Positions 5,682 to 64,000 of a DNA stretch of 64,000 nt are shown in pieces; the first letter of the stretch is position 1, and the number at the start of each line of letters is the position of its first letter. The translations under genes were made by a program, and so were the position numbers. The stretch comes from Sutcliffiella sp. FSL R7-0096 (GTDB lineage Bacteria > Bacillota > Bacilli > Bacillales > Bacillaceae_I): NCBI RefSeq assembly GCF_038595065.1, contig NZ_CP152003.1, forward strand, positions 724,001 through 788,000, read 5' to 3'. A model generated the notes under the pieces. It saw only the letters and a list, made by a program, of their open reading frames with translations, did not search any database and was not told the DNA's origin.

Positions 5682-6198
5682 AAAAGATATTCTACTGATG
5701 AATAGTGACAAAAACTTTAATAGATTACTTGCAATTATTGAATCCGTACCAAGTAGAAAAAGAGGCCTTTCCATTGAAACGCTAGAAAGAGATAAGAATT
5801 TCCGTGATGTCGTCATGCACCTGTATGAATGGCATGCCATGCTGGAGAGATGGTATAGGGAAGGTATGAATGGGGATATCCCGTTTATGCCGGCACCGGG
5901 TTATAAATGGAGTAAGATCGGGCAACTCAATATGCGAACTTGGGAAAACTACCAAGACGTATCATTAAATCAAGCGATGAAGAAATTGAAGTTAAGCCAT
6001 GAACGAGTGATGAAACTTATTAAATCACATACCAATGAAGAAATCATGACCAAAAAACAGTATAAGTGGACCAAAACTAGTAATTTATATAGCTATTTTG
6101 CAGCAAATACTTCCGATCATTACATTTGGGGGATAAAAAAATGTGAGGTTATTGCAAAGTCTATAAAAGGAATGGAAGAGAAGCAACTTGTGAAATAA
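5668..6198 (+). CDS. ClbS/DfsB-family four-helix bundle protein
   Basis: This 176-residue protein starts at GTG 5668, inside the end of the DUF2500 gene and after GGGAGGAG. Recognisable family pieces are FRDVVMHLYEWHAMLERWY, the proline-rich MPAPGYKW, and SDHYIWGIKKCEVI at the end. ClbS, a relative, is a cyclopropane hydrolase that protects E. coli from colibactin; most members are uncharacterised. The first and last helices carry the paired histidines typical of DinB-like bundles (H51-type and H at SDHY). The function here is inferred only from family. Confidence 0.8.
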   Translation: MTTSEKDILLMNSDKNFNRLLAIIESVPSRKRGLSIETLERDKNFRDVVMHLYEWHAMLERWYREGMNGDIPFMPAPGYKWSKIGQLNMRTWENYQDVSLNQAMKKLKLSHERVMKLIKSHTNEEIMTKKQYKWTKTSNLYSYFAANTSDHYIWGIKKCEVIAKSIKGMEEKQLVK

Positions 6199-6221
6199 AG
6201 GCTGATGACTAGGTGGGGACT

Positions 6222-6680
6222 ATGAAAATACTCTTAAAGGATAAACTACTACAATTCGTTGTGATATCGCCAATATCCATACTATTGATTACTGCCTTAT
6301 GCATCATGACTCCAGTTTTTGATTTACGATATCCCAAGATAGTGGATATCCGTGATACAGTTACGCTTGTTTCATTCGCTTATTTTCCTTCTAGCTTTTA
6401 TGCCATCCCAGTAGCTATCATTACGGAGATGTTAATCAAGAAAATTCCTTCTGGGGCCAAAGCTTTTAAATTTATCCTATACGTCTTTTGGGCATTCCTG
6501 TTTTTTCTACTATTTCTAATTCCTTCGTTTGGATTTAGCATTTTTGGATTTGTTCCTTTTCTGTTACTTTTCATCTATGAAGAATGGAAAGCTAGGTTCA
6601 TTCATAAATCTTACAAACTGCTTTCCGCAACAAGTGTAATAGCAATACTTATCATTTATTTAGTAAGCCTATTCTATTGA
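6222..6680 (+). CDS. Integral membrane protein, unknown function
   Basis: This 152-residue hydrophobic protein has about four transmembrane helices (one near residues 10-30, one near 48-66, a pair within 80-118, and one at the C-terminus) and a basic loop EEWKARFIHKSYK. ATG 6222 follows AGGTGGGG at 5 bases; the GTG at 6213 overlaps that site and is rejected. It is 24 bases after the ClbS-like gene and probably in the same transcript. The family is not recognised. Confidence 0.6.
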   Translation: MKILLKDKLLQFVVISPISILLITALCIMTPVFDLRYPKIVDIRDTVTLVSFAYFPSSFYAIPVAIITEMLIKKIPSGAKAFKFILYVFWAFLFFLLFLIPSFGFSIFGFVPFLLLFIYEEWKARFIHKSYKLLSATSVIAILIIYLVSLFY

Positions 6681-46300: not shown

Positions 46301-48224
46301 CTGCGACATTTGGAATAGGTACTTTAGGCAATTCCCATTGTTCTTCTGGATCGTATAGACCAAAACCATTCTTTAGGCTATATTCCTCTTTTGTTGATAG
46401 CTTGTCTATTAACAGCTTTTCTTTTCCCGTCGGCGATTTGATTATCTTGCTTTTGTCCCTTACCATTCTGAACTTTTCCTGTGAGGCTTCTTTTAGCTCT
46501 GAGATCATTTCTAGTCCGCCGACCCGTTGCAGTTCACTTTTACTTGTTAAAAGTCGGTCCAGTGATGCATCTAGTTTTTCGTTTTCTAGCGTGAGTAAAA
46601 GCTTTAAAGCACTTTGCCGGAGACTTCCTGTTTTTAATTTAAGTATGGCTTCCACTTTTACTATTTCTTCAGGTGCCAGCGTTAAGTTTAGGATCCGCGT
46701 CATAGCCTTTTCACGGTTGCTCATGCTTTTATCCGATAAGCATGTAAAAATATACTCGCGTTGAGTAGGGTTGGATGGATTTGTTGTAAAGCAATCAAGT
46801 AAATAGCCTCTTGTATCTGCGCTGTACCTGTCTTTATTCTCGATGAGCTGCTTGATGAGATCCTCATCCATATCATAAGCAGTAAGATAAAGCATTTTCT
46901 GTACAATAGAGTCAGCAGAGTAAGCTATCTCCATTCCATTGAAAGCTCTGGATTTGATGGTGATGTCTTTATTCGGAGCCTTGTCTAGCATGACTTTAAA
47001 AAGATTGAACTGTCGTAGTCTCTCGGCCTTCTCTTCCAGTTGAGGAATGCGTTCGAACTCGATTTTATAATTATATTGATCAGTCTTCCGGTTCCAGTTA
47101 TACGAAAAATAACATTCATACGTATAGTTAGTGAGCAGAAAGTATTGGAGCTCACGATCGGTTTCATGCAGATGCTTGGACGCGATCGTGTATTTGAGCA
47201 GATCGTTCTGACTCTGAGAGAGCATGGATTGAGCGACTATCTTATGGTAGGTTTCGCCTGTATTCATCACCTCTATTACCAGGTCGGTGAGGTCATCCTC
47301 CTCGATTACTGCACTTGCCCACAGGCTTGTGTACATCTTGTTCAAATTATCACTCTTTAACCACTTTTTGCGGAGGTCAGGATTTGTCAGGCTATCATGA
47401 ATGTATTGAACCACTTGCTTAGTGACACGGGCTTGTTCCGCTTCGAGTGTTAAGCCCGTCCACACGTCGATTGCTCTAACAACAGAGCTGTATCGGATTA
47501 GGTTGTTGTCAAGGATAACATTAAGCAGGTGCGTTGTTGCCTCTAATGTGCCTTCATCCATTGTTTCAACAATGCTTTGTCGGAGTCCTTCTTGAAGTCT
47601 CGCTGCCACAAGGAGGTCCCCGATGATGGTATAAGCTTCTTCCCGATGGCTAAGCAACATGCCTTTTATCATTTCTCTTGTCAGGAGGGCAGTGTTGTTG
47701 TCACCATAGATGATTTCTTTAAGTGAGCTTAGAACATTGGCGTTTTGCTCATCTAGCTCATAAGCGATGATATCACTGATCACTTGGTTGTTTATGTCAA
47801 GGTTCCGGTTTGTAAGAATGTCCAGGATAGTGACGCGATGCTTGGCCAGATCATGGAGGGATGCGAATTTTTCAATGACTCTATTTAAATGAACTGTTAA
47901 ATTTTTGGTGCGGAATGGTCTCCGATCATAGCCTGTTGAGTAGGGATACTCTGTTGCGTGATGGATGATGTATTGCATGACATTCGCATGGTAATCGCCG
48001 AGTAAGTTCCGAGTAAAGTCCACTAGCCGCTTGAGCTTGTCTTGGTCGGTTTCTTCTTGGGTGTTGAGTGTTTTAGTAATACGGCGAGCATGTCGACCCT
48101 GGTCATACTCGTCCGTTTGCATATATTTCAGAAGGTGTCTAGCTATCTTTTGATCCTGTTCATTTAGTGTTGCAATGTTTGCTTCATAATCTATTAAATA
48201 GATTTCGCTTGATTTTAATGTCAT
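43320..48224 (-). CDS. DUF4132-family giant cytoplasmic protein
   Basis: This 1634-residue protein has no signal peptide or membrane helix. The N-terminal 700 residues are helix repeats (ARM/HEAT-like), as in DUF5724. The C-terminal third has DUF4132 landmarks: GEERFAILYDCAKYISSGANHRRAQFFADATLG, ALLCYSLIP-type KDHLLCYSLIPF, RYEFIQKFLKESKQFGAQRRA, and LDNLARNAGYKDVTRLRWDME. E. coli MolR is a distant relative. The function is unknown. A small gene lies 60 bases upstream on the same strand and probably shares its transcript. Confidence 0.85.
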   Translation of the reverse strand: MTLKSSEIYLIDYEANIATLNEQDQKIARHLLKYMQTDEYDQGRHARRITKTLNTQEETDQDKLKRLVDFTRNLLGDYHANVMQYIIHHATEYPYSTGYDRRPFRTKNLTVHLNRVIEKFASLHDLAKHRVTILDILTNRNLDINNQVISDIIAYELDEQNANVLSSLKEIIYGDNNTALLTREMIKGMLLSHREEAYTIIGDLLVAARLQEGLRQSIVETMDEGTLEATTHLLNVILDNNLIRYSSVVRAIDVWTGLTLEAEQARVTKQVVQYIHDSLTNPDLRKKWLKSDNLNKMYTSLWASAVIEEDDLTDLVIEVMNTGETYHKIVAQSMLSQSQNDLLKYTIASKHLHETDRELQYFLLTNYTYECYFSYNWNRKTDQYNYKIEFERIPQLEEKAERLRQFNLFKVMLDKAPNKDITIKSRAFNGMEIAYSADSIVQKMLYLTAYDMDEDLIKQLIENKDRYSADTRGYLLDCFTTNPSNPTQREYIFTCLSDKSMSNREKAMTRILNLTLAPEEIVKVEAILKLKTGSLRQSALKLLLTLENEKLDASLDRLLTSKSELQRVGGLEMISELKEASQEKFRMVRDKSKIIKSPTGKEKLLIDKLSTKEEYSLKNGFGLYDPEEQWELPKVPIPNVAANNVFSTDFTRIREILTSLSELIHEHREHQYEVEWYGYKETHLVGETLTRNHTNETHEKREGIDDLPLAEVWRDFFKTIQITTHELIELNSMISLDIVYRYRYKRVSRWEMDDYITPNDWRKEFLDSVYPLEKVKVFYTFAPELPYYSQINEIVSSYFQELNKEEVFVTVSGMLHTMMESIPEEKQHSERQMYQLITNPWLDWAKANVYDDASYKTYFLLLYKLYTINNFKRFGPSLEKLVRAYDLGLIKDTELTKALLGRENSKDYIFELTRTTTDTTKMPPSIEPIREKVIARILEMELKRGDLQTEVTTLATRIQYYEGMEYFITILTGLDKEAFVRGYFYYYDSLNRTKKESFSHLLQVCHPKEGENEELLRQLLKDKKISDKRLLEAAMYAPQWLDIVAAYLKWDGLKSAAWYFHAHTNEAFSAEKETKVAHYSPITPEEFHDGAFDIDWFKEAYGQLGEERFAILYDCAKYISSGANHRRAQFFADATLGKLTLADMKTSVETKRNKDHLLCYSLIPFEKANTNDILERYEFIQKFLKESKQFGAQRRASEAKIVAIALDNLARNAGYKDVTRLRWDMEARKMEEVIYFLEPVEIDDITVQLVIDGNGKGDIKVIKNNKELKSVPSKFKKHAYILELKEVNKALKEQYSRAKTELERSMELETPFTLKELSNMIKNPVVAPLVEKLVFKADDKIGFFSGEAFQAPTGESYQLESDDKITIAHPVHLYESGRWSDYQQYLFDQQIKQPFKQVFRELYRLNADEKAAGTESRRYAGHQIQPKKTIALLKNRMWTVNYEEGLQKVYHKENIIAKIYAMADWFSPSDVESPTLETVEFFDRNTHKSISLSNIPKIIFSETMRDVDLVVSVAHIGGVDPEASLTTIEMRVAIMQESLRLMKIKNVRIEGKFAHIKGILGEYAIHLGSTMAYKQASGSLHILPVHSQHRGKLFLPFLDEDPKTAEILSKVIMLADDKKMKDPSVLEQLKGRSS

Positions 48225-50237: not shown

Positions 50238-53200
50238 ATGAAAAAGAGAGTTTTCAAGAAGGCCACAACCTTGACATTGGCAACAGGCCTTTTGTTCAGT
50301 GCTATGGTACCGGTTTCCAACTCGTATAATGTCCATGCCGAAACATCTACAAGTATTAATCAGGTTTTGACAAATCTCACACCGTCCCAACGTGAAGCGT
50401 TGAATAAATTACAAATCAGCGATCAGTCTGGTTTGCAATTAACGTCTGAAGTGAATTTGGAGAGCGATGATAAAGTTTCCGTTATCGTTGAATTCAAGGA
50501 CAAGCCTGCTAAGACGGCAGTAGTAGAAGAGGCCGCAAAAGGAAAAAAAGTGTCGTTAGCTGAGGCAGAGCAAAAGGCCGATGCTGCTCATGAGACGTTC
50601 AAGAAAGACTTACAGAGCATATATCAAGAAGATGTAAAAAAGAAAAAAGATATCTATAAGATTAAAAGATCGTATAAGCACTCTCTTAACGGGGTATCTA
50701 TGGAATTACCTTCTAATAAAGTGGAGGCATTATTGCAGTCCAAGGTAGTAAAAGCCGTTTGGAGTAATGAAACAGTGCAAGTAGATCCTCCTGTTGAACA
50801 AAAAACATCTGATGAAACGACAGAAGCCAAACGATTGACATTCCCTGGTGTGGATCAATTGCACCACGAAGGATTAACAGGTAAAGGAATTAAGATAGGG
50901 GTTATCGATTCAGGAATTGATTATAATCATCCTGATTTAAAGGATGCTTATAAAGGCGGTTATGATTTTGTTGATAACGATAATGACCCGATGGAGACAA
51001 CATATGAGGATTGGAAAAAATCGGGGTATGCAGAAATTAATCCTTTGACAGGTTCCACTTATTATACGCAACATGGAACCCATGTAGCGGGTATCATTGC
51101 AGGTCAAGGTAAAAATAATGCAGATTACGCCGTGACTGGTGTAGCACCGGAAGCGGATATTTATGCGTATCGTGTATTAGGACAATATGGTTCTGGTACC
51201 ACGGAAGCTATATTAGCAGCAATTGACCGGGCTGTTGTAGATGGAATGGATGTAATCAATCTATCACTTGGCAGATCCTACAATGATCCTCTCTATGTCA
51301 CTAGTATGGCATTAAACAATGCGGTGCTGGCGGGAGTGACGTCAGTTGTTGCTGCAGGGAACAGCGGAGACAATATGTACACACTAGGGTCCCCAGGTAC
51401 TGCTGCTTTAGCTATTACAGTTGGAGCAAGCGATACACCAGAAACGATTGAAACATCTAAAGGTTCATTGGAAGATGTAACCGCAGATCTTAAACTTCTG
51501 GCAAAAAGTCTAGATGATAAAGTAGAAGAGCTAAAGGGTCAGAGTCTTCCAATTATATACGCTGGATATGGGTCTGCTTCTGATTTTAACAACAAAGATG
51601 TGAAGGGGAAGATTGTCCTAATCGACAGAGGAATTCTCACATTGGATGCCAAGATTAAAGAAGCGCAAAAACACGGAGCAAAAGCAGTATTGATGGCTAA
51701 TAACATCCAAGGAGAAGGATTCATTCCATCTTATTTAGGAGAAGGGTACGGAATGATTCCGACATTTTCTCTATCCTATGAACAAGGAACGATGTTGAAA
51801 CAAAAAGCAACTGGCACTTTGGAATTCTCCTTTGATGAAATTGGGCAAGTGATCAGCGAAGGAAACAAGCTTGCATCCTTTAGTTCACGTGGACCGGCTC
51901 GTACGACATATGATATCAAGCCGGAAGTAGTTGCACCAGGCGTATCTGTTTTCTCTACAGTACCTTCGTATATGCATGGGGAAGATCAAATCGGAAACTA
52001 TCAATATGCCTATAAAAGACTATCAGGAACATCGATGGCAAGCCCGAATGTGGCTGGGGTAGCGGCATTATTATTACAAGCGAACCCAGATTTCACTCCT
52101 GAACAAGTGAAGCAAGTATTGATGAACACGGCAGATCCACTAAACGGTGAATATAGCGTTTATGAAGTGGGAGCAGGTGTAGTGGATCCGTACGAAGCAA
52201 TTCATTCTCAAAGCCGAATCGAAGTAAACGATGAAACACAAGGGAAATTAGATAATAAAGGCAATTATAAGATGGTGAAAGATAAAACGGGGGCAATCAG
52301 CTTTGGAACCTTTGCACCGGATGGAACCAATGTGACAGATCAACGTTCCCTTACTATCTACAACAATAGTAAACAAGCAAAAACATTTGATGTAGGTATA
52401 GAGTTTCAAGTGTTGAAAGGGCGATTTCAAAACGATTATCGAACATCAAACGACGCAGAAGCTAACGGTGTTCAGATTTCCACAGATAAGAAAGTAAAAG
52501 TGAATGGAAATGGGAAAAAGAAGACGAATGTGTTCATTACGATTCCCAAAACGGCAGCGCTAGGAACGTATGAAGGCTATATTACCTATACAAACCAAGT
52601 AAATCCGGAAGAATCATACCAAGTTCCGTTTGCTATCCGCACGACAAAGGAAGGAATCGAGTTTGTAGAAATACTTAATAAAGCAATTACCACTACGAAA
52701 GATTATAATGCGGCAAGACGATACACAGATGTATATTTGAATTTAACATCCCATATGCGTACACTCGATGTGTTTTTAGTGGATGGAAAAACAAACGAAG
52801 AATTAGGATTTATTGGAACATATGATGGTATGTTGATGAATGAAAAAGTCGATCTTGGGATTAAGCATGTATTTGAAGGATATTACTATCCATTTACTGG
52901 TGATGCGGACAAGCCAGTCGCTTATAACCCGAAATTAGCCAAGCAAGGATCTTACAAATTGAAATTCGTAGGCACGAATGATTCAGGAAAAACTTTCTCT
53001 AAAGAATCTACCATTTATATAGAGAGTATCGCACCGGAACTTGATCTTAATATAAAAGAGGATGTATATGAGTACACCCCTGAAGAAACTACGATAAACG
53101 TGACGGGTTCTATTTTCGATAAAGAAACGGAAGATATGAAGGCCGCAGGATTTGATGTTTCACAAGGAAGTAACGAAATGTTTTATCATGATCAGCTTGG

Positions 53201-54350
53201 TGGCCGACCTATACAGATTCCTGTGAATGAAGATGGCACTTTCTCTGTTGATATTCCAATCAATCAAACAAGGCCAATGCAACTTTGGTTTTACGGGAGA
53301 GATGCTGCCTCCAATCAAACATGGAATAATAGTAGAATGATCTACATTATCCGTGAAGGCGAACCGCATGCAAATATGCAGGCTGAAAAAATATCTGCAA
53401 ATATGGGAGAGTCTGTCCAAACGACATTAACCCTAGATAATGTAAACAATGTAAAAGAAGCTGTGTATTCGTTGCAGTATAATACAACCTTGGCTGAACC
53501 GACTGTAACGCCGCACAGCAGTACCAGTGGTTCAGTGGATGTAAAAGTTGAGGATGTAAAACATTTTGGAGATTACAACAAATTGACAGTTACAGTATCA
53601 ACAAAGGAGGGACTCCCGGCAGTGTCTGGTGACCTCTCACTAGCGAATATAGAGTTCAAGATGAAGGCCGCAAACTATTCTCAGGCTCCTTTATTCTATG
53701 CCAATTATTTGACTGCCTCTTACACTGATACGAGTAATGAAAAGAAGGAAGCATTGAGTGCAAATCCGATGATCTTTGTCAAGGCAACGTATTCAATGGT
53801 TTACGGTCCTGTTGCTGCAGAAGCATTTATGAATCCGAGTGGAACACCAAATTCAAATGATTACAAGAAGGCCGGTGTCAAAGTTCAGGTAACAGGTAAG
53901 GACGACAAGGTGTATCAAGGAGGGTTTTTAACATCTCCGTCAACAGGTTATCAGATTTCAAATTTACCTTTACCAGATGAAGAATTCCAATTCGAGCTCA
54001 ATGTCCCTGGCCACTTTACTGTGCACAATGCAATCACCGTTGGATTCCATGATGATGGCAAAGTAACCAGCCAAAAAAAATATCTGCCATACAAACCTGC
54101 GATCGGTGGGGATGTTAATAAAGATGATGTCATCGATGTCATGGACGCAGTGTACATCCAAACGCATTGGGGTACTAATAAACGCGAAGCCGATATTAAC
54201 TATGACGGCATTGTAGATGAAAAGGATATGGCATTTGTAGTAAACAACTACTCCATGCAAAATCCGACCATCCAAAATGCGCCAAAACCTAAGAAAAATT
54301 ATAAAGGACAAACGTTAGAAAAGATCTTAAACGAGCTAAATATGCAATAA
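50238..54350 (+). CDS. Vpr-like S8 protease with cohesin-like and dockerin modules (copy 1)
   Basis: This is a 1370-residue secreted protein. Domains in order: signal peptide (about 1-35), I9 propeptide (about 75-185), subtilase domain with Asp224 (VIDSGIDYNHPDL), His279 (HGTHVAG) and Ser599 (GTSMASP), with a PA insert (about 425-545), then Ig/Fn-like domains, a cohesin-like beta-sandwich (about 1045-1175), a carboxypeptidase-regulatory-like segment (about 1195-1285) and a type I dockerin from 1292 (GDVNKDDVIDVMDA, DINYDGIVDEKD). B. subtilis Vpr stops near residue 806. ATG 50238 follows AGAGGGG. First gene of a four-protease cluster. Confidence 0.92.
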   Translation: MKKRVFKKATTLTLATGLLFSAMVPVSNSYNVHAETSTSINQVLTNLTPSQREALNKLQISDQSGLQLTSEVNLESDDKVSVIVEFKDKPAKTAVVEEAAKGKKVSLAEAEQKADAAHETFKKDLQSIYQEDVKKKKDIYKIKRSYKHSLNGVSMELPSNKVEALLQSKVVKAVWSNETVQVDPPVEQKTSDETTEAKRLTFPGVDQLHHEGLTGKGIKIGVIDSGIDYNHPDLKDAYKGGYDFVDNDNDPMETTYEDWKKSGYAEINPLTGSTYYTQHGTHVAGIIAGQGKNNADYAVTGVAPEADIYAYRVLGQYGSGTTEAILAAIDRAVVDGMDVINLSLGRSYNDPLYVTSMALNNAVLAGVTSVVAAGNSGDNMYTLGSPGTAALAITVGASDTPETIETSKGSLEDVTADLKLLAKSLDDKVEELKGQSLPIIYAGYGSASDFNNKDVKGKIVLIDRGILTLDAKIKEAQKHGAKAVLMANNIQGEGFIPSYLGEGYGMIPTFSLSYEQGTMLKQKATGTLEFSFDEIGQVISEGNKLASFSSRGPARTTYDIKPEVVAPGVSVFSTVPSYMHGEDQIGNYQYAYKRLSGTSMASPNVAGVAALLLQANPDFTPEQVKQVLMNTADPLNGEYSVYEVGAGVVDPYEAIHSQSRIEVNDETQGKLDNKGNYKMVKDKTGAISFGTFAPDGTNVTDQRSLTIYNNSKQAKTFDVGIEFQVLKGRFQNDYRTSNDAEANGVQISTDKKVKVNGNGKKKTNVFITIPKTAALGTYEGYITYTNQVNPEESYQVPFAIRTTKEGIEFVEILNKAITTTKDYNAARRYTDVYLNLTSHMRTLDVFLVDGKTNEELGFIGTYDGMLMNEKVDLGIKHVFEGYYYPFTGDADKPVAYNPKLAKQGSYKLKFVGTNDSGKTFSKESTIYIESIAPELDLNIKEDVYEYTPEETTINVTGSIFDKETEDMKAAGFDVSQGSNEMFYHDQLGGRPIQIPVNEDGTFSVDIPINQTRPMQLWFYGRDAASNQTWNNSRMIYIIREGEPHANMQAEKISANMGESVQTTLTLDNVNNVKEAVYSLQYNTTLAEPTVTPHSSTSGSVDVKVEDVKHFGDYNKLTVTVSTKEGLPAVSGDLSLANIEFKMKAANYSQAPLFYANYLTASYTDTSNEKKEALSANPMIFVKATYSMVYGPVAAEAFMNPSGTPNSNDYKKAGVKVQVTGKDDKVYQGGFLTSPSTGYQISNLPLPDEEFQFELNVPGHFTVHNAITVGFHDDGKVTSQKKYLPYKPAIGGDVNKDDVIDVMDAVYIQTHWGTNKREADINYDGIVDEKDMAFVVNNYSMQNPTIQNAPKPKKNYKGQTLEKILNELNMQ

Positions 54351-54376
54351 GAAAGTAAGAATTTAATAAAATTTAT

Positions 54377-54412
54377 ACCACATCCACGATGAAATTCGGG
54401 TGTGGTTTTTAT
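54377..54412 (+). terminator. Terminator of protease copy 1
   Basis: ACCACATCC at 54377-54385 pairs with GGTGTGGT near 54399-54406, followed by TTTTTATT. Confidence 0.75.
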
Positions 54413-54575
54413 TGTGCGGAAAATCATTTAAAACTTTTCAGCTCGGTTTAATTATCATTAATCCCCTCTTCATACTTTTTACCTAAAAATTTCCCCCAAT
54501 AGGGAACTTTCACATTTTCACGAATTACTAGTAATGACTGAGGTAATCAGTACTATCAAGTTGGGGGAGAGGCGT

Positions 54576-57500
54576 TTGAAAAGGAAAAACATCTTAGGAT
54601 TGATGTTGGTTGGTGCATTATTAATAAGTAGTATTACACCAGCTATTTCGAATCCTAACACAGTTGTAGCAGAGGGAGATATAGGGATAAAGGATGCGAT
54701 GACATCACTATCAGCAGAAAAAAGAAGGGCCATTAATGACTTAACGGCTTCGGTAACTTCAGAAGTGAACCTTCCTGGTGACATTGATTATTCCAGTGAT
54801 GAAGAAATCTCTATTATTGTGGAATTCAACCATTTCACTCCAAAAACAGCAGTAGCTATAAGAGAAGCAGAGGGGGAAACAGCCTCCATTGAGGAACAGC
54901 AGCAGTTAGTGGAGAAAGATCACCAAATTTTTGCGAAAGAATTATTAGAATTAAATATCGACGGAGAAGTTACACAAAGCTACAAAGAAGCATTTAATGG
55001 GGTCACCGTTAACCTACCAGCTTCTGATATACCAAAACTAATAAAATCAAAAGCGATAAAAAACATTTGGGAAAACGAAACAATTCAATTAGAATTACCT
55101 GAAAACAAGGAGAAAATGGTACAACAAGCGTATGACGGGAAGCATCCACTTGAATTGACAGGAGTAAACAAATTACATGAAAAAGGGCTAACAGGCAAAG
55201 GTATAAAAGTTGCTGTACTAGATACGGGTATAGACTATCATCACCCAGATTTACAGGATGTATATCGTGGCGGGTATGACTTCGTTGATGAAGATGATGA
55301 TCCAATGGAGGCTACCTATTCAGATTGGCTTGAATCGGGCCTCCCAGAATCTCTCGGTTCTAACGCCTATTATACTTCCCATGGTACACATGTTGCCGGA
55401 ATCATAGCAGGTCAAAATGAAAATGACTCGCCTTTATCCGTATTAGGTGTAGCACCTGGGGTGGAATTGTATGCTTATCGTGTTTTAGGGCCATATGGGA
55501 CAGGGACGATGGAAGATATATTAGCAGGGATTGAATATTCTGTTCGAGCAGAAATGGATATTATCAATTTATCGTTAGGGAATAACATAAATGATCCGCT
55601 ATCACCCTTTTCAGTGGCACTTAATAATGCTGTACTCGCTGGCGTCACGACTATTTCCGCAGCAGGGAATACTGGTTCCGCGTTATATTCGATCGGATCT
55701 CCTGCTGCTTCGGCTTTGAATATTACCGTTGGGTCTACTGACACGATGGTGGCATATCCAGACTTTGAAGGAGAATTCTTATATGAGGAAGGCAAAGAGT
55801 CGAGCGAAGTTCGATATGCAACTGCTGGAATGGAGAATTCACCGAGATCATTAGAAGGAAAAGCTTTCGAGGTAATAGATGCTGGGAATGGACTGCAAAG
55901 CGATTATGAAAATATAGATGTAAATGGAAAAATAGTCTTGATTAAAACGGGTTCTATTCGTACAGATGAGAAAATTGCGATTGCTAAAGAACATGGTGCA
56001 GCAGTAGTGTTCAGTTATACGCCAGGGTATGGGAATTATAATGGGGTTGTATATCGCGAAAATGAAAACTTTGTACCTACCTATCATTTGCGAGGGGTGC
56101 AAGGAGATAAAATTAAACAAATTCTAGCAATAGATGATATGACTTTTACTTTTACTAAATTAGTTCCCACTGTGGTTGTTCAGGATGATACGCTGTCTTC
56201 TTTCAGTTCACGTGGACCAGCAAGACTTACGTATGATATAAAACCAGAAATTGTTGCGCCTGGCGGGAATATATTATCCACTGTACCACATTACTATGGT
56301 GGGAAAGAAAAGAATTATTCATCGGCATATGCGAAATTATCTGGCACATCAATGGCAACCCCTTATGTCGCAGGGATTGCTGCTTTGTTGTTAGAAGCAA
56401 ACCCTTCTCTAACTCCTGGAGATATCAAAGCACTTTTAATGAACTCAGCGGAGCCAATTAATGGTTCGAACAGCGTCTTTGATATCGGGGCTGGTAGAGT
56501 CAATGCTTGGAAGGCAGAAACTGCTTCAGTGACCATTAAAGTGATGGATAAAACTGAGACATTTATAGATGGCGAGAAAAAGTGGGTTCCATCCGTAACA
56601 GGTGCTTTAGCTTTGGGGACCCTTATCACTAATGATTCACATCATCGAGAGAATGCAAGTATTACCCTTACTAATCATCTAGATAAAAAAGTGACTTTTA
56701 CTATTGATTCACAATTTCATGTAGGAATTCGCGGTTCGAAGGATGGAGCAAAAAATGGAGTAAAAGTGAATACAAAGAAATCAGTTAGTATTGCAGCTAA
56801 AAAACAAGCAACAAATAATATATTCTTAACTATACCAAAGACGGCGGAAGAAGGAGTTTATGAAGGCACAATTACCTTCACTAATGTAGAAGATGAATCA
56901 AATAGCTACCAAGTTCCTTTCGCATTTAGGCTCTCGAAAGATGGTATAGAGTACTTAACGGCGAATGACACCTTATCAACCATTAGAGAAAACTATAGTG
57001 GTGGTCCAAATGCCATGAACGCAAAGTTTTCCCTCTATTCACATATGAGAGATATCGATGTATATTTAACGGACGCTAATACTGGGGATGAATTAGGTTT
57101 TGTAGGAAGCATTGACGGAACTTTTCTCCAAGTGGAAAAGCCGTATTCATTCTACACCTTCTCCAATGGGGAATATTACGCTTTTACCAATGACCCTAAC
57201 TCACCGATTACTTATGAAACGATTGAAGCAACTCCAGGGTCGTATTATTTAAAATTTGTTTTTACTAAGGATGATGGGGAAGAGCTTTTGGTAAATATGC
57301 CATTTATTATTGATAAAGAAATGCCAACGCTAGAAATGGATGTAGAAACAGAAATTATTGAAGTGGAGCAAGAAAAAACTACTTATTTATTGGAAGGCAG
57401 CATTCATGATAATCAAATTGAATCAGCTAAGACAACAGGCATTGATGTAAATCAAGGAAATAACTCGGTAAGATATAAGGGTAGTGGCAGTTTTTGGCAA

Positions 57501-58607
57501 AATATCCCTTTGGATGATGATGGTGGATTTGCCATCAATGCTTCTTTTCCTCGTCATTTAAATGTAATGAACTTAAGTATCCTAGGAAGAGACCGAGCAG
57601 GAATTGCTTCTATACAAAAAGACTACCACTTTGTAAGAAAAGGAGCGCCATACGTTGCTAGTATTCCAACGCAAAAAGAAATCTTGTCAGGAGATAGCAT
57701 GGAATTTGCATTCCGTACAAATAATCTTGCTCCGTGGAAGGAGCTAAGCTTTTCCTACCAATATAATAAAAATGTGATAGATATCAAGGAAATATCTGTA
57801 GTGGAGGACTGGAAGGAGAAGGTTCATCTTGAAACTACTGAATCAGATAATGGCACCTTAATCACATTAACGACGACAGAATCTAACCTAGAAGACGTAA
57901 CTACCTTATTAAACGTTAATGTAACTATTAAGGATGATGCGTTTGTAAGTGATTATTTCTCACTTACCGCAAACTCGGTATCATTGACAAAAGCAGATAA
58001 CTCAAAGGTATCCGTTTCTTCTATTTCACCACCAGTTAAAGTTTGGTCAAGCTACTCTGAATTGCAGGGGAATATTAATGGAGAAGCTGTATATGAAAGG
58101 GATGGGTTTGGAAATTTACGCTCCACACATATCGACTATTTTGCATTAGGGGCGAATATTCGTGTATTGGACGCCGAAGGTAACGAATATCCTGCCGAAA
58201 TCAAAGATGATGCTAAATTCAGTGTTCTAGGATTACCCTCCACTCAGGAAAAAATGTTCCTTCTTCTTGATATACCAGGACACTTTACTGTTATAAAAAG
58301 TTTTACTATCGGTAGAGAACATAGTCACTTAGGAGAGCAAAAATTCTTGAATTTTCTCGGGGCACTTGCAGGAGATGTGAATAAGGATGGCGTCATCGAT
58401 ATTTTGGATGCTATCTATCTCGAAGAACATTGGGGATCTAACGACAGGAACGCAGATATCAACTTTGATGGTGTAGTGGATCACAAAGATATGAGCTTCA
58501 TCCAAAAGAATTATTTACTAAAAAATCCGACTGGAGAAGCTTCCAGAGAACCTACAGAAGTCGAGAACGGAAGAACAATAGATGATATATTAGAGGGTTT
58601 AAATTAA
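54576..58607 (+). CDS. Vpr-like S8 protease with cohesin-like and dockerin modules (copy 2)
   Basis: This is a 1343-residue secreted protein with the same plan as copy 1. Catalytic residues are Asp216 (VLDTGID), His269 (HGTHVAG) and Ser592 (GTSMATP); the dockerin starts at 1267 (GDVNKDGVIDILDA, DINFDGVVDHKD). The start is TTG 54576, directly after GGGGGAGAGG; it gives a clean signal peptide (KRKNILGLMLVGALLISSI). An ATG at 54534 in the same frame has no ribosome site. The PA insert and the middle Ig-like part differ clearly from copy 1, so the copies are old. It ends at a terminator. Confidence 0.9.
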   Translation: MKRKNILGLMLVGALLISSITPAISNPNTVVAEGDIGIKDAMTSLSAEKRRAINDLTASVTSEVNLPGDIDYSSDEEISIIVEFNHFTPKTAVAIREAEGETASIEEQQQLVEKDHQIFAKELLELNIDGEVTQSYKEAFNGVTVNLPASDIPKLIKSKAIKNIWENETIQLELPENKEKMVQQAYDGKHPLELTGVNKLHEKGLTGKGIKVAVLDTGIDYHHPDLQDVYRGGYDFVDEDDDPMEATYSDWLESGLPESLGSNAYYTSHGTHVAGIIAGQNENDSPLSVLGVAPGVELYAYRVLGPYGTGTMEDILAGIEYSVRAEMDIINLSLGNNINDPLSPFSVALNNAVLAGVTTISAAGNTGSALYSIGSPAASALNITVGSTDTMVAYPDFEGEFLYEEGKESSEVRYATAGMENSPRSLEGKAFEVIDAGNGLQSDYENIDVNGKIVLIKTGSIRTDEKIAIAKEHGAAVVFSYTPGYGNYNGVVYRENENFVPTYHLRGVQGDKIKQILAIDDMTFTFTKLVPTVVVQDDTLSSFSSRGPARLTYDIKPEIVAPGGNILSTVPHYYGGKEKNYSSAYAKLSGTSMATPYVAGIAALLLEANPSLTPGDIKALLMNSAEPINGSNSVFDIGAGRVNAWKAETASVTIKVMDKTETFIDGEKKWVPSVTGALALGTLITNDSHHRENASITLTNHLDKKVTFTIDSQFHVGIRGSKDGAKNGVKVNTKKSVSIAAKKQATNNIFLTIPKTAEEGVYEGTITFTNVEDESNSYQVPFAFRLSKDGIEYLTANDTLSTIRENYSGGPNAMNAKFSLYSHMRDIDVYLTDANTGDELGFVGSIDGTFLQVEKPYSFYTFSNGEYYAFTNDPNSPITYETIEATPGSYYLKFVFTKDDGEELLVNMPFIIDKEMPTLEMDVETEIIEVEQEKTTYLLEGSIHDNQIESAKTTGIDVNQGNNSVRYKGSGSFWQNIPLDDDGGFAINASFPRHLNVMNLSILGRDRAGIASIQKDYHFVRKGAPYVASIPTQKEILSGDSMEFAFRTNNLAPWKELSFSYQYNKNVIDIKEISVVEDWKEKVHLETTESDNGTLITLTTTESNLEDVTTLLNVNVTIKDDAFVSDYFSLTANSVSLTKADNSKVSVSSISPPVKVWSSYSELQGNINGEAVYERDGFGNLRSTHIDYFALGANIRVLDAEGNEYPAEIKDDAKFSVLGLPSTQEKMFLLLDIPGHFTVIKSFTIGREHSHLGEQKFLNFLGALAGDVNKDGVIDILDAIYLEEHWGSNDRNADINFDGVVDHKDMSFIQKNYLLKNPTGEASREPTEVENGRTIDDILEGLN

Positions 58608-58612
58608 GAGAT

Positions 58613-58646
58613 ATCCCCCCACGATGCTTATGTGGGGGGATGTTTT
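58613..58646 (+). terminator. Terminator of protease copy 2
   Basis: ATCCCCCCAC at 58613-58622 pairs perfectly with GTGGGGGGAT at 58632-58641, followed by GTTTTA. Confidence 0.85.
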
Positions 58647-58664
58647 AAATAGCAATGGAAATTT

Positions 58665-58705
58665 AAAAAAGATGACCTCTGTTCATTACAGAGATCATCC
58701 TTTTT
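58665..58705. terminator. Terminator between convergent protease copies 2 and 3
   Basis: GATGACCTCTGT at 58671-58682 pairs with ACAGAGATCATC at 58688-58699 (one unpaired position). Six A residues precede it and five T residues follow, so it can end transcription on both strands. Confidence 0.8.
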
Positions 58706-58737
58706 ATTAGGAGCCTTGCGTTTTTTTTTGACTTGGG

Positions 58738-61700
58738 TTACGGATTAGTAATCCCTAATTCCTTTTTTACTTTCTCAAGGGTCATGCCTTGATGTTTCAG
58801 AACAACATCCTTTAATTCATCTAAAGTGTGATTTCTCATTAGGTAGTTCGCTTCAATATAACTCCAATCCTTCTCATCGACAATGCCATCTAAATTAATA
58901 TCTGCAGAGCGATCACTTGACTGCCAATTTTCTTTTAAATATAGAACATCAAAAATATCAATCACATCGTCTTGATTCACATCACCTGCATACGTAAACG
59001 CAGTAATGGAAGTTAAAGATCCTGTAATTTCTCCATCTTCCTCTTTATTCACCATGATATCTTTAATATAAGGGAAGTGACCGGGAATATTCACCTTTAA
59101 CGTATATGGCTCGGCATTTATCGGTATGTTATGGAAGCTGAAACCTGCTCTTGTGTTAATGTCAGCTGTAGATTTGGTTCCGTCCGGACTTATCAGTTCA
59201 ACGGAAGCACCAACTTTTGTATAGTCTCGGGAAAAATCAACGGATGTATCCGGTTTTAAGAATCCTTGCCCAACAAAGCCACCACTGATGACACCTGTTT
59301 GATTCAGCATTTTCAGTCCTTCTATATATCCTTGTGCTGTAATGGTGTCTCCATTTGTGTCAATGTATCGATTGCTTGTAAAGTTAAATCCTGCGAAGTC
59401 AGTCCATCTCTTATCTGTTACGCTAAATGTAACATCTAACAATGGCATCTCACCTGTGATTTCTTGATCTCCAGTCAGGATAAGATCCACTTTTGCATTG
59501 GAGGTGGAGCCAATAGTCAAATCAGTTTGTAGGTCCACATCGTAATTGGATAATGCATCATTTTCCTTGATATCGAGAATTTCCATTGAATCAATGAAAT
59601 ACAACGTGAATTTTGCTTCTTTTAATTGTCTAACATTATTGGCAGTCATCGTAAACGTAACAATGTCTCCAGGTTTCGCGGACCTTTTACTGTAGACTCC
59701 TGTCATATAGGAAGTACTTTCGGGAACAAAATTATAGGTTCTTTTCACCGTTTTGTTCGTCGCAGCATCTAGGGCATCCAAGCTTGCTATATTATTTGTT
59801 GGTCTAACAAGTGGGACTTCCATTTCAAAAGTGCCATCTTCTTCTGGGAATATACGATAATCAGGTAACATCGAGTACAAATATTCATAAATGAAATTAT
59901 CTGCCTGACTAATATCGATACCTGCTTCTTGAATATCCCCTACTTCATTGTCAATTAATGTTCCACTTACAGGATAGGTTTTTTGTCCTTCAGAAAATTC
60001 ATAAACGAGCTGATCATCAATACTTGTTTTAAATTCTGGTTTATTATTATCGACAAATATGTCATCTACTTCCGTAAACGTTTTGCCGCTTTCATTGGTA
60101 GCAATAAATTTCAACTTATAGTGTCCTTGTTCTGCGAAGGTTTCCTTTAAATGAACTGGATAGTCCTCATCTCCAGTAAATGGATAATAATTTCCTTCAT
60201 AACCATATAAACCGTAAGGGACACCGATTTGTAAGTCACTTCCATTGAAATATCCAACATAACCAATATCTTCACCTGTTTTTCCATCTGCTAAAACTAC
60301 ATCCACTTGCTCTACGTTAGAGTTAAGCTGGAAACTGAAGGTAGCAACAGGAAATGAACCAAAATAGGAGCCTCCTGGATTGGTAGTTAGGACTTGTTTA
60401 TCAAATGTCAAAAAGTCAAACCCTTCTTCTGCAACACGGATGGAGAATGGGACTTGAAAGGCTTCATTTGAGTCGTTTATATTCTCATAAGAGATATATC
60501 CTTCATAAAACCCTGATTCTGCTGTTTTGGGAATCAGGACAAACGCATTGGTTTTTTTAGATTTTCCAGGATTAATGGAAATTTTCTTATCAAATTGAAC
60601 TTGTACACCGTTCTTTTTTGCATCTAGCGATTGATTTGTAAATTCAACTTTTCCCACAAACGATTTCTTATCTGTGCCATGATTACTCACTTCTATTGTG
60701 CGTTGATCGCGAATGTGTTTTCCATCGTTGTATTGTAGGCCAAAGCTGATGGAGCCAGTCTTTTCATCAATGATAATACTATCTCCATCAGATATGTTTG
60801 TTGTTTCATCGATCACCTGGAATAGCATGGTGGAATGAACTGCTTCATACGGGTCGACTCGTCCCGCCCCAACTTCAAATACGCTGTAATCCCCATTTAA
60901 CGGATCGGCCGTGTTCATCAGAATTGTTTTTATGTCCTCGGGTTGTAAATCCTGATTGGATTCCAACAAGAGAGCGGCAATTCCAGCTACTTGAGGAGCG
61001 GCCATGGATGTGCCTGATAATCGTTGATACGCATATTCATAGTTATCCCCATTTTCGGGGTTTACCATGTAGGATGGAACTGTGGATTGAATACCAACTC
61101 CAGGTGCAATAACCTCAGGCTTAATATCATAATTAAATTTTGAAGGTCCTCGTGAACTGAAGTCAGCTAAACGATCTCCCTCGGTTTGAACGGTGCCAAG
61201 TTTTTCGAAAATAAATTCCTCTAAAAGTTCCATTTCTTCCAGTAATATTTCTCCATCTTTTTTTGTTAAACTGAATGTTGGAATGAAGTCTTTATTTTCA
61301 CCCAGGAAGTAAGGGATATGCCCGTCCTCTTCATTGTTGTACATAAAGATGGCTTTAGCCTCGTTTAGTTTTGCATGTTTAATTTTGTCATTTAATGAAA
61401 TCTCTCCACGTCTAACAAGAACAATCTTATCCTTGACATCTTTCCCAGAATAATCCTCTGATCTTCCTAACCCAACTTCTGTGATTGGTAGTGTCTGACC
61501 TTTAAAGTCTTCTGCTTTATCACTATAGTGTTTTCCTAGTAATTGTAGATTAATAGGTTGTGAGTATAACTTCCCTTCGTATGTAAGGATTTCCAAGGGA
61601 GTATCACTTGCCCCAACCGTCAATGCTAGTGCTGAAGAAGCTGGCGAGCCGAGAGTATAGGCTGCATCCCCTGAATTTCCCGCTGCTACAATGGCTGTTA

Positions 61701-62805
61701 CTCCACTAAGGACTGCATTGTTAACGGCGACACTAGTCGGGAAATATGGATCATTAATGGAAGCACCTAAAGACAGGTTTATGATGTCCATCCCATCTTC
61801 GACCGCTTGATCAATTCCTTTTAACACATTTTCCGTTGCACCGCTACCATATGGACCGAGTACTCTATATGCATAAATGTCTACATCTGGAGCCACTCCC
61901 TTCGTTGCATAATCACTATTATTGGAACCTTGACCAGCAATAATTCCAGAGACATGTGTACCATGATTGGTATAATATGAACTTCCCCCTGAAAATTCTG
62001 GTTTGTAAGTGGATTTCCAATTTTCGTAAGTTGTTTCCATTGGATCCGAATCGTTATCTACAAAGTCATATCCACCTTTGTAGGCATTTCTTAAGTCAGG
62101 ATGATTATAATCTATTCCAGTATCGATTACGCCAATTTTTATCCCTTTTCCGGTCAAACCTTCTTCATGCAGTCGGTCAATTCCTAGGTGGGGGTTGCTG
62201 TCTGCCATTTTAGTAGTAATTCCGAGATTAGCCACTTCACTTAAATCTGGTGGATTAATGCTGATTGTTTCATTTCCCCAAATAGTTTTTACGGCCCCGG
62301 TTTGCATTACTGTTTTTATCTTGTTAGCAGGCAATGTAATCGCCATTCCGTTAAATATTTCTGAGTATTGATGTTTAATGGAATAAGAGTCACTTTTCCC
62401 ACTGTCTTTGAAAATGCCACTTAACTCTTCTTTGAATTTCTTCTGTTCATGGTTAATATTGCTTTTGGCTTTTGATTCTGCTACTTCTTCCCCCTTCAAA
62501 CTTGCTATTAGTTGTGCAACCTTAGCTGGCTTTTGATGAAATTCTAAGATAACAGAGATCTCTTCATCAGTGTCCAAGTTAACTGCAGGAGGCAATTGCA
62601 GCCCAGTTTTATCGTTTAATTCTAAATACTTCATGGCTTTTCTTTGTGCGTCTGTAAGATTGTTTAGTATTTCCATGCTAGAAGAGCTTATTTTTCCTAG
62701 TGATTCCCCAGATACCCTTTCAGGAGAATAAGATATAGTACTGAAAAGCATACTTAATGACAATCCGACTACAGTGACACTTTTAAATAACTTACTTTTG
62801 TCCAA
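58738..62805 (-). CDS. Vpr-like S8 protease with cohesin-like and dockerin modules (copy 3)
   Basis: This is a 1355-residue secreted protein on the minus strand. Catalytic residues are Asp228 (VIDTGIDYNHPDL), His281 (HGTHVSG) and Ser600 (GTSMAAP). The dockerin starts at 1275 (GDVNQDDVIDIFDV, DINLDGIVDEKD). The start is TTG 62805, 8 bases after GAAGGAG; a GTG at 62814 overlaps that site. The signal peptide is KLFKSVTVVGLSLSMLFS. The order of I9, S8, PA, Ig-like, cohesin-like and dockerin matches copies 1 and 2. It is convergent with copy 2 and divergent from copy 4. Confidence 0.92.
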   Translation of the reverse strand: MDKSKLFKSVTVVGLSLSMLFSTISYSPERVSGESLGKISSSSMEILNNLTDAQRKAMKYLELNDKTGLQLPPAVNLDTDEEISVILEFHQKPAKVAQLIASLKGEEVAESKAKSNINHEQKKFKEELSGIFKDSGKSDSYSIKHQYSEIFNGMAITLPANKIKTVMQTGAVKTIWGNETISINPPDLSEVANLGITTKMADSNPHLGIDRLHEEGLTGKGIKIGVIDTGIDYNHPDLRNAYKGGYDFVDNDSDPMETTYENWKSTYKPEFSGGSSYYTNHGTHVSGIIAGQGSNNSDYATKGVAPDVDIYAYRVLGPYGSGATENVLKGIDQAVEDGMDIINLSLGASINDPYFPTSVAVNNAVLSGVTAIVAAGNSGDAAYTLGSPASSALALTVGASDTPLEILTYEGKLYSQPINLQLLGKHYSDKAEDFKGQTLPITEVGLGRSEDYSGKDVKDKIVLVRRGEISLNDKIKHAKLNEAKAIFMYNNEEDGHIPYFLGENKDFIPTFSLTKKDGEILLEEMELLEEFIFEKLGTVQTEGDRLADFSSRGPSKFNYDIKPEVIAPGVGIQSTVPSYMVNPENGDNYEYAYQRLSGTSMAAPQVAGIAALLLESNQDLQPEDIKTILMNTADPLNGDYSVFEVGAGRVDPYEAVHSTMLFQVIDETTNISDGDSIIIDEKTGSISFGLQYNDGKHIRDQRTIEVSNHGTDKKSFVGKVEFTNQSLDAKKNGVQVQFDKKISINPGKSKKTNAFVLIPKTAESGFYEGYISYENINDSNEAFQVPFSIRVAEEGFDFLTFDKQVLTTNPGGSYFGSFPVATFSFQLNSNVEQVDVVLADGKTGEDIGYVGYFNGSDLQIGVPYGLYGYEGNYYPFTGDEDYPVHLKETFAEQGHYKLKFIATNESGKTFTEVDDIFVDNNKPEFKTSIDDQLVYEFSEGQKTYPVSGTLIDNEVGDIQEAGIDISQADNFIYEYLYSMLPDYRIFPEEDGTFEMEVPLVRPTNNIASLDALDAATNKTVKRTYNFVPESTSYMTGVYSKRSAKPGDIVTFTMTANNVRQLKEAKFTLYFIDSMEILDIKENDALSNYDVDLQTDLTIGSTSNAKVDLILTGDQEITGEMPLLDVTFSVTDKRWTDFAGFNFTSNRYIDTNGDTITAQGYIEGLKMLNQTGVISGGFVGQGFLKPDTSVDFSRDYTKVGASVELISPDGTKSTADINTRAGFSFHNIPINAEPYTLKVNIPGHFPYIKDIMVNKEEDGEITGSLTSITAFTYAGDVNQDDVIDIFDVLYLKENWQSSDRSADINLDGIVDEKDWSYIEANYLMRNHTLDELKDVVLKHQGMTLEKVKKELGITNP

Positions 62806-62814
62806 GTGATACAC

Positions 62815-63312
62815 TCCTTCTTCAATATTATTAAGAAATCATAATCTTCTTAATAAATTTAATAATCTCACATGTGAATTGAAGAATGTATGGGGGTAAC
62901 ATAGGAGAGTACGGGCAGCAACAACGAAGCTTATGTCCTAGTTAAATCGTAATGTTTATAGAGATTTTCAGGATTTTTTAAGCTGGCGTTTTAACGATAT
63001 AGTTCATTAGAACTGTTTGTTTTTCCCAAGTTGTATAATTTAAAATAGGCGACTCCATTCAACTATGCATTAGTAGTTTTGCTGATAGTAATATCCCCCA
63101 AATTTCATAAGTATTTAGAACTGGTTCTTTGGATGCGGTTCGTATCAAATAGAATAGAAAATCTATGAAAAGTGTGATGATTCAGTGTTTAGTATTTAGT
63201 TATTAAAATACTTTTAAGTTTTCCCTTTCATAATTTGACAAAATTACCCCCAATGACATGAAAGCGATTCGACACTAAAATTATTAGTAGAATGACACAG
63301 GGGGTAAAAAGG
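62815..63312. promoter_or_regulatory. Divergent control region between protease copies 3 and 4
   Basis: Near the copy 3 start, TTATTAAGAA and TTCTTAATAA form an inverted repeat at about 62828-62854 around a 9-base spacer. TCACATGTGA at 62868-62877 is a perfect 10-base palindrome. Near the copy 4 start (63250-63300) the sequence is A+T-rich with GATTCGACAC and TAGAATGA pieces. No small gene is visible in the rest. These are candidate binding sites for regulators of the proteases; no known consensus is claimed. Confidence 0.4.
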
Positions 63313-64000
63313 ATGAAAAGTAGTAAGTTGCCGAAGATCGTGCTATGTGTTGGAATACTTTTAGGTTCTGCTTTGCCAATCAGTTCAGAACCAGTTGTCC
63401 GTGCAGAATCAACGCAGAATGCCATGAGTATTCTTGCGAGTCTATCAAAAGAACAACGTGAGGCACTCGATAAATTAGAGACAAATCGTTCGATTAAAGG
63501 CCTTCAATTATCTAGGGCAATTGATTTAAAGAGTGAGGAGAATGTGACAGTCATTGTTGAATTCGAGCAATTACCTGCGAAGGCAGAGACAGTCTACAAG
63601 TCACTGCAAGGGGAAGAGGTCCCTCTTGAAAAGGCGAAAAAAATGGTGGAAGACTCACATGAAAAATTTAGAAAAGAATTAGATGATAAGCTTGTGCCAA
63701 AGGCGAAATCCGGGAAAGCGAACTACGAAGTAAAGCACACCTATAAAAATGCTTTTAATGGAATTACCCTGTCCTTACCGGCCAACAAGGTTGAAAATCT
63801 ATTAGACTCTGAGGTGGTTAAAGCAGTGTACAGCGAATTGGAAGTACAGCTTACTCCTCCACCTAAATTAACGGAGGAAGAAGAGGCAACAACCAAAGTG
63901 GACAGTATCCTTTTTATGAATATCGATCAGTTACATAAAGAAGGGTTCACAGGTAAAGGGGTAAAGGTTGGCGTTATAGACACAGGGGTTGATTATAATC
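63313..64000 (+). CDS. Vpr-like S8 protease (copy 4), partial
   Basis: ATG 63313 follows AGGGGG and opens a frame that runs off the window end (about 229 residues seen). A signal peptide (KIVLCVGILLGSALPIS) is followed by an I9 propeptide (ENVTVIVEFEQLPAKAE ... NAFNGITLSLPANKVENLL) and the start of the subtilase domain (FTGKGVKVGVIDTGVDYN), which ends the window just after the catalytic Asp. It is divergent from copy 3. The C-terminal modules are outside the window. Confidence 0.9.
   Translation, partial: MKSSKLPKIVLCVGILLGSALPISSEPVVRAESTQNAMSILASLSKEQREALDKLETNRSIKGLQLSRAIDLKSEENVTVIVEFEQLPAKAETVYKSLQGEEVPLEKAKKMVEDSHEKFRKELDDKLVPKAKSGKANYEVKHTYKNAFNGITLSLPANKVENLLDSEVVKAVYSELEVQLTPPPKLTEEEEATTKVDSILFMNIDQLHKEGFTGKGVKVGVIDTGVDYN

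Follow-up and report, generated by a model that had tools for sequence, protein, structure and literature searches.

The present study asks what a secreted protease might do with both a cohesin and a dockerin, module types known from cellulosomes. The locus that raises the question lies at the end of a 64,000-nucleotide stretch from Sutcliffiella sp. FSL R7-0096 (the window; G000:C1:724001-788000 in a genome of one 4.9 Mb contig), whose last 14 kb hold three whole open reading frames (ORFs) for Vpr-like subtilases and a truncated fourth. The last ~330 residues of these proteins run in the order cohesin, X module, dockerin (Coh-X-Doc), and profile alignment indicates that this trimodule as a whole is homologous to the Coh-X-Doc tail of the scaffoldin CipA of Clostridium thermocellum. 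By analogy, the subtilases may chain head to tail in trans without a scaffoldin, a reading to which we give a probability of roughly one half.

Subtilase copies and their C-terminal modules

An earlier interpretation of the window from its letters (the sequence-only reading) had proposed four neighbouring subtilase genes with inhibitor I9 and peptidase S8 domains, the three complete ones also carrying a PA insert, a cohesin and a dockerin. All four ORFs are confirmed, and I9, S8, PA and Dockerin_1 stand above the Pfam cut-off in copies 1, 2 and 3 (hmmscan), with the cohesin recovered by a family profile; signal peptides were assigned by eye. Copy 1 (P0001, 1370 aa) occupies 50238..54350 on the plus strand, with the I9 propeptide at 50481..50783 (residues 82-182, 41.8 bits) and the Pfam S8 domain at 50880..52178 (residues 215-647, PA insert at 443-519). 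Copy 2 (P0002, 1357 aa) lies at 54534..58607 (+) and copy 3 (P0003, 1358 aa) at 58738..62814 on the minus strand, both called by ORF and Pfam, and copy 4 runs from 63292 to the window end at 64000 (+) with domains as in the other copies (dockerin 38.5 bits). Only the window truncates copy 4: the full gene at G000:C1:787292-791413 (L031:292-4413) has a cohesin and a dockerin too, in addition to the three complete genes for which the earlier interpretation had named both modules. The cluster of four likewise holds for the window and grows beyond it, since the genome has six Vpr-like copies, five of them in the cluster at the window end (copy 5 begins ~7 kb past copy 4) and copy 6 at ~465 kb. The copies are 37-44% identical to copy 1, whose closest named relative among the blastp matches listed is a Sutcliffiella halmapala protein (59%). 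At least 142 subtilase ORFs in the collected loci, the six own copies counted, end in the same way (at least 135 distinct sequences), and a shared end on this scale is not chance.

The cohesin almost escaped whole-protein hmmscan, in which Pfam listed it for copies 3 and 6 (17.3 and 18.5 bits), below the cut-off of 24.1. When the segment was searched alone, copies 1, 5 and 6 rose above the cut-off (32.0, 26.9 and 24.9 bits), copy 3 came slightly under it (23.7 bits), and copies 2 and 4 gave no match, so that the Pfam check once proposed for the three complete copies bore out Dockerin_1 in all of them and the cohesin in copy 1 alone. With the own copies excluded, a family profile of 66 relatives found the module in all six copies at 65-146 bits and in none of four other subtilases of the genome, the Vpr orthologue included. 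By this leave-out profile the cohesin lies at 53364..53792 (+) in copy 1 (about residues 1043-1185, 83.0 bits), at 57648..58082 (+) in copy 2 (about 1039-1183, 65.4 bits, the most diverged of the window copies) and at 59269..59712 (-) in copy 3 (about 1035-1182, 127.5 bits). Cellulosomal cohesins headed the PDB matches whether the profile was made from the six copies (3l8q, E=2.6e-7) or from 72 relatives (1.5e-6); among the lower matches was a handful of designed Ig folds and antibody domains of sharks. On these profile matches, the beta-sandwich is a cohesin in all six copies. Its type, I or II, is not assignable from such comparisons: type II cohesins, described as marked by a helical crown and beta-flaps (PMC8063739), lead the PDB matches, although for the most part only the first third is aligned; there are matches to type I cohesins as well, and it is across a type I cohesin that the trimodule profile aligns.

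In copy 1 the X module, recognised by alignment to those of CipA and relatives, lies at 53805..54095 (+; about residues 1190-1286), the dockerin with its two calcium loops at 54108..54245 (+; 1291-1336, 27.3 bits) and a C-terminal tail, defined by its conservation and its co-variation with the dockerin, at 54258..54347 (+; 1341-1370). Copy 2 has its X module at 58095..58358 (+; X-Doc profile 167.9 bits) and dockerin at 58368..58508 (+; 1279-1325, 34.3 bits), and copy 3 at 58996..59259 (-; 179.2 bits) and 58858..58989 (-; 1276-1319, 25.3 bits), the X module bounds being approximate in both. Dockerin_1 was above cut-off by hmmscan in copies 1-4 and 6; the dockerin of copy 5 reached 24.5 bits, also above cut-off, in a six-frame search and 19.8 bits in hmmscan. 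By these searches all six copies have a complete dockerin with two loops at the C-terminus. The sequence-only reading had described a type I dockerin with two calcium loops. The loops stand, and the type I label is doubtful because an X module, which that reading had missed, precedes the dockerin; the dockerin appears type II-like instead. The X-Doc profile spans both X module and dockerin of CipA (2b59_B, E=2.9e-8; 3kcp_A; 5g5d_B), aligns over the same two modules with 5k39_B and 4u3s_B, and has ScaA-type X-dockerins among its matches. A single profile of the trimodule is collinear with 3kcp_A, the CipA tail, residues 14-311 falling on 14-311 (E=1.8e-10), and the spacer between cohesin and X module, read off the alignment, is nearly nil.

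Partners in the genome and the genus

Where such modules might find their partners was asked in the genome itself and in a genus sample of 16 genomes, of which one is 80% complete. All six dockerins (Pfam, E<=1) and six cohesins (family profile, E<=0.001) of the Sutcliffiella genome lie inside the six copies. At E<=0.001 the genus shows 30 dockerins: a broken copy holds one, and the other 29 lie in frames of 1356-1416 aa that were judged family members by frame length and by the collected ORFs. The family profile found cohesins at 33 places in nine of the 16 genomes, 31 of them in 1356-1416 aa frames; the broken copy accounts for another and a 2933-aa frame for the last, which was seen by the full profile and missed by the profile built without the own copies. 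Each of the 33 is alone in its frame, no frame having two, and the 14 places found with the Pfam cohesin likewise share none. An X-dockerin accompanies every one of the 33: Pfam detects the dockerin for 30, and in the other three an in-frame X-dockerin is matched by the profile built without own copies (182, 172 and 49.5 bits). The remaining seven of the 16 lack both modules.

A multi-cohesin scaffoldin was not found in the genus genomes with Pfam or the family-built cohesin profile, although these thresholds and that profile might miss a very diverged one, and the broken copy apart there was no dockerin outside family frames. The marks of a cellulosome, a scaffoldin with several cohesins and dockerins on several kinds of enzyme, were not found in the sample. 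Since the cohesins and dockerins detected lie in family copies, a protein has itself or its sisters as visible partners; and in three genomes (G004 and G015 of the genus, G097 outside it) the only visible partner is the protein itself, because a single cohesin and a single dockerin were detected in each, both on the same ORF. The wider collection was gathered through dockerin-like patterns or around dockerin matches and a few cohesin matches, and since its loci were picked in this way the at least 142 ORFs cannot show that cohesins never lack dockerins, for which a cohesin-based whole-genome search is the fairer test.

Proposed chaining in trans and its rivals

In the favoured reading, the calcium-loaded X-dockerin of one protease would plug into the cohesin of a second molecule, either an identical protein or a sister, giving a chain with catalytic domains as side groups and no scaffoldin. 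Such a chain could be fastened to the cell, in some relatives, by an S-layer-anchored member carrying these modules, and the purpose might be to keep protease activity near cells, possibly for nutrient or signal peptides under quorum control. Binding, pairing in trans over cis, polymer formation and purpose are what we infer, and it is by analogy only that the modules would join proteases. Pairing in trans is favoured because the CipA tail, matched in order and spacing, pairs with separate chains in 3kcp (an anchoring cohesin chain) and 4fl4 (a GH9 dockerin chain), as named in the PDB entries; folding back is not favoured, as the cohesin-X spacer is almost absent. A fuller and less probable version, in which a Vpr-like subtilase acquired the cellulosome joint as a graft, would make each enzyme its own one-cohesin scaffoldin, with sisters co-polymerising, an S-layer member anchoring them in some species, and NprR-like quorum control.

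The residues D, H and S, assigned as catalytic from subtilisin motifs, are intact in all 128 distinct full-length relatives, and 125 of these have D, N, S, T or E at each of the ten calcium-ligand positions, the remaining three having Gly at one position. Several observations nevertheless weigh against joining by these modules. The Pfam cohesin is sub-threshold or absent in three of the six copies, and the single-copy protein of G004 is one with Gly at one of its ten ligand positions. Among 122 sequences less than 95% identical, the cohesin is the least conserved globular domain, with a mean pairwise identity of 0.21 against 0.56 for the dockerin (S8 0.61, X module 0.29). Because only 7 of 145 cohesin positions are conserved at 70% or more, no conserved docking face is visible. 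When distance matrices of 122 sequences were compared, cohesin and dockerin were not correlated beyond the background (partial -0.05, against 0.29 for cohesin and X), and in mean-field direct coupling analysis (mfDCA) cohesin-dockerin pairs were at expectation (6 seen in the top 100, 7.8 expected), a test that is underpowered since cohesin-cohesin pairs were not enriched either. The one clear mfDCA signal joins the dockerin to the conserved ~30-residue tail past it (10 pairs in the top 100, 1.7 expected), with which it co-varies; cohesin-tail pairs were mildly raised (22 against 9.2 in the top 200), from which no reading is drawn given the lack of cohesin-cohesin enrichment.

A rather improbable alternative is that the dockerin docks in cis on its own cohesin, closing the C-terminal arm into a unit that is locked by calcium and resists proteases, and that would serve to regulate or stabilise the enzyme. 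Both halves do sit on one chain and are retained where a single copy was detected, no scaffoldin was detected, and the effective concentration would be high. Such a clasp fits poorly with collinearity to the extended CipA trimodule and with hardly any spacer before the X module; the missing cohesin-dockerin co-divergence speaks against it as well, although that test is blind to the difference between cis and homotypic trans pairing. It is about as improbable that mutual binding has been lost and the modules now act as spacers kept rigid by calcium, or bind something else such as wall polymer, S-layer glycan or substrate. The far drift of the cohesin, not shared by the dockerin, and the absence of a co-variation signal are what one might expect in that case, and dockerins without cohesins are known, with their role described as unclear (PMC4081043), some genomes of the order having such dockerins. 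The joint inheritance of the halves, with an X-dockerin beside 33 of 33 genus cohesins, and the strong constraint on the calcium positions point the other way. Least credible by far is a conventional cellulosome-like complex, in which a scaffoldin from another locus would receive the proteases while their own cohesins took up dockerin enzymes; the module types are those of cellulosomes, but searches of the 16 genus genomes, at thresholds and with a family-built profile that a very diverged scaffoldin might escape, found no multi-cohesin ORF and, the broken copy aside, no non-family dockerin. Chaining in trans, if the halves do bind, would give a protease assembly without scaffoldin, simpler in design than a cellulosome, and a test bed for divergence of cohesin and dockerin specificity among many sister copies in one cell, the modules themselves being small and soluble.

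Relatives, neighbouring genes and known systems

Coh-X-Doc subtilases form a wide and apparently little noted family in Bacillales. A scan of named genomes gave at least 74 loci, of which at least 53 (L034-L085, L087) match well past the dockerin, their hosts being Bacillaceae, Paenibacillaceae and kin plus one Streptomyces record of 71% GC. In that record, of Streptomyces poriferorum, the member (L070:5985-10076) sits in a stretch of 70-72% GC, and for this reason it is probably a cross-phylum transfer and not Bacillus contamination. Of 120 genomes sampled across the order, dockerins at E<=1e-4 occur in 14, at 78 places in total, and 64 of these places lie in frames of 1333-1428 aa. Two genomes, G038 and G114 (L130-L169), have 25 and 30 dockerins and 24 and 31 cohesins, many copies in tandem; were chaining true, such genomes of 24-31 copies would encode a self-assembling protease consortium of mixed specificities.

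The family also varies at its end. Three SLH repeats follow the dockerin in at least three members (L071:752-6424, L072:5811-11402, L085:5691-11060), in two of which the dockerin is shown by the family profile only and not by Pfam, and these members are possible cell-surface anchors. In Paenisporosarcina sp. HGH0030 at least one member with three SLH repeats stands beside at least two soluble ones, and each of them has a cohesin and an X-dockerin. The X-dockerin was detected, and the cohesin was not, in L081, L083 and L087, three members of great length. A 340-aa ORF of Bacillus sp. 165 (L078:8016-9035) is Coh-X-Doc alone, either an adaptor or a gene remnant, and in other proteins of the order, from G083 (L172:1532-2248, L173:1600-2736), the dockerin follows the cohesin within ~5 residues, without an X module. 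Other dockerin contexts in the order are short Coh-Doc proteins, a nuclease-domain protein, and a position after FIVAR.

An HTH-TPR regulator adjoins copies 4, 5 and 6 (L031:4639-5874(+), L031:16142-17464(-), L032:9766-11010(+)), at gaps of 229, 294 and 136 bp. A profile of 24 such regulators matches NprR (4gpk, E=2.8e-38), Rap proteins (RapI) and PlcR, and by these matches the neighbouring regulators are of the peptide-sensing RNPP type. The genome has five strong RNPP-like regulators and one weak; besides the three just named, a fourth strong one adjoins another S8 protease and a fifth lies ~6 kb from that protease (L108:11744-12988 and 5393-6619). In related loci, 15 of the 48 proteases with enough flank have a regulator within 700 bp. 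No convincing signal-peptide gene was found downstream of the 24 regulators, a crude filter yielding one dubious candidate. A further HTH-TPR gene (L031:17588-18844) stands 27 kb from copy 1; at six other loci its counterpart immediately precedes the relative of copy 1, so that the cluster seems rearranged. Between copies 4 and 5 are a gene for a SipW-like signal peptidase and another resembling camelysin/TasA (L031:6267-7535), a pair also present in at least five related loci (L064, L065, L067, L068, L074). Elsewhere in the window, 43320-48224(-) encodes a giant 1634-aa protein with DUF5724, DUF4132 and DUF7737.

Upstream boxes were sought as well. A first motif guess, T[ATW]NCCCCCA, occurred upstream of 7 of 81 family genes and 5 of 337 other ORFs and was rejected. 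The 8-mer ACCCCAAT, chosen from the same data, lies upstream of 16 of the 81 and 11 of the 337; five of those 11 ORFs encode the divergent regulators. It tracks a neighbouring regulator, which is present for 12 of 13 genes with the box and 10 of 42 without (Fisher p=1.5e-5, uncorrected for kinship, in a table from which regulator-less rows with flanks under 1.2 kb were dropped while regulator rows were kept, and which leaves out window copies 1-4). The exact box occurs among the six own copies at copy 6 only. Copies 2, 3 and 4 have a CCCCCA variant upstream, and copies 1 and 5 have neither: TTTCCCCCA upstream of copy 2 (54490..54498, +) is a variant, weak for this copy, of the box at NprR-neighboured relatives, and TTACCCCCA is upstream of both copy 3 (62891..62899, -) and copy 4 (63244..63252, +). 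A box near ATWACCCCAATTTACA precedes family genes in L032, L051, L052, L058, L059, L061, L064 and L065, and also in L067, L068, L071, L072, L074, L122 and L189. Standing mostly at proteases with an NprR-like neighbour, it is a candidate operator.

Comparison with known systems narrows what may be new here. Peer et al. in 2009 are said to have described cohesin or dockerin modules outside cellulosomes. In the open literature, searched by title and abstract start, there was no report of Bacillales subtilases with both cohesin and dockerin. The sequence-only reading had held that a protease assembly would be new for Bacillus; as such it is not, because Vpr forms enzymatically active fibrils (PMC10657474). 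The same report has Vpr cleave the PhrC signal precursor and cites others for its processing of TapA, and the gene context here fits such Vpr-like roles by analogy, although it proves none. Vpr (PDB 8jmw) shares S8, I9, PA and secretion with these proteins and has neither cohesin nor dockerin, its fibrils forming by another interface. The match of copy 1 to 8jmw stops at 637 of 803, whereas the genome's own Vpr orthologue, a separate gene, spans 2-794; by this measure copy 1 is not the Vpr orthologue. Chaining of the kind proposed, if true, would be a second Bacillales way of holding proteases near cells besides Vpr fibrils, and one that sits beside regulators of peptide-sensing type.

A peptidase with both halves is likewise not new as such, since ScaP2 of Clostridium alkalicellulosi is in print. 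ScaP2 and ScaO2 of that species are described as secreted peptidases with a type II cohesin and a dockerin in one chain, and binding of the ScaP2 X-dockerin to type II cohesins was measured by enzyme-linked immunosorbent assay (PMC6780208). ScaP2 has the order Peptidase-Coh2-Peptidase-XDoc2-GalOx-Rhs, and these are single genes amid a full cellulosome system (PMC6780208). The likeness to ScaO and ScaP, compared here by description and not by sequence, lies in having peptidase, cohesin and dockerin in one chain; unlike them, the present copies show no GalOx or Rhs in Pfam scans and there is no cellulosome here. Another subtilase with dockerins, the S8 protease dDoc_0689 of C. thermocellum, has been proposed to dock on the cell-bound scaffoldin ScaD (PMC12484212); it differs in its double dockerin, and its description mentions no cohesin. 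An S8 domain is also reported among cohesin-containing proteins of Acetivibrio mesophilus (PMC11557425). Closest of all is the Coh9-X-DocII tail of CipA (ScaA) of C. thermocellum (3kcp, 4fl4), with the same modules in the same order and spacing over 298 aligned positions. In CipA this is the tail of a non-catalytic scaffoldin and its cohesin is of type I, while here the trimodule ends a subtilase, recurs in six genes and comes with no scaffoldin.

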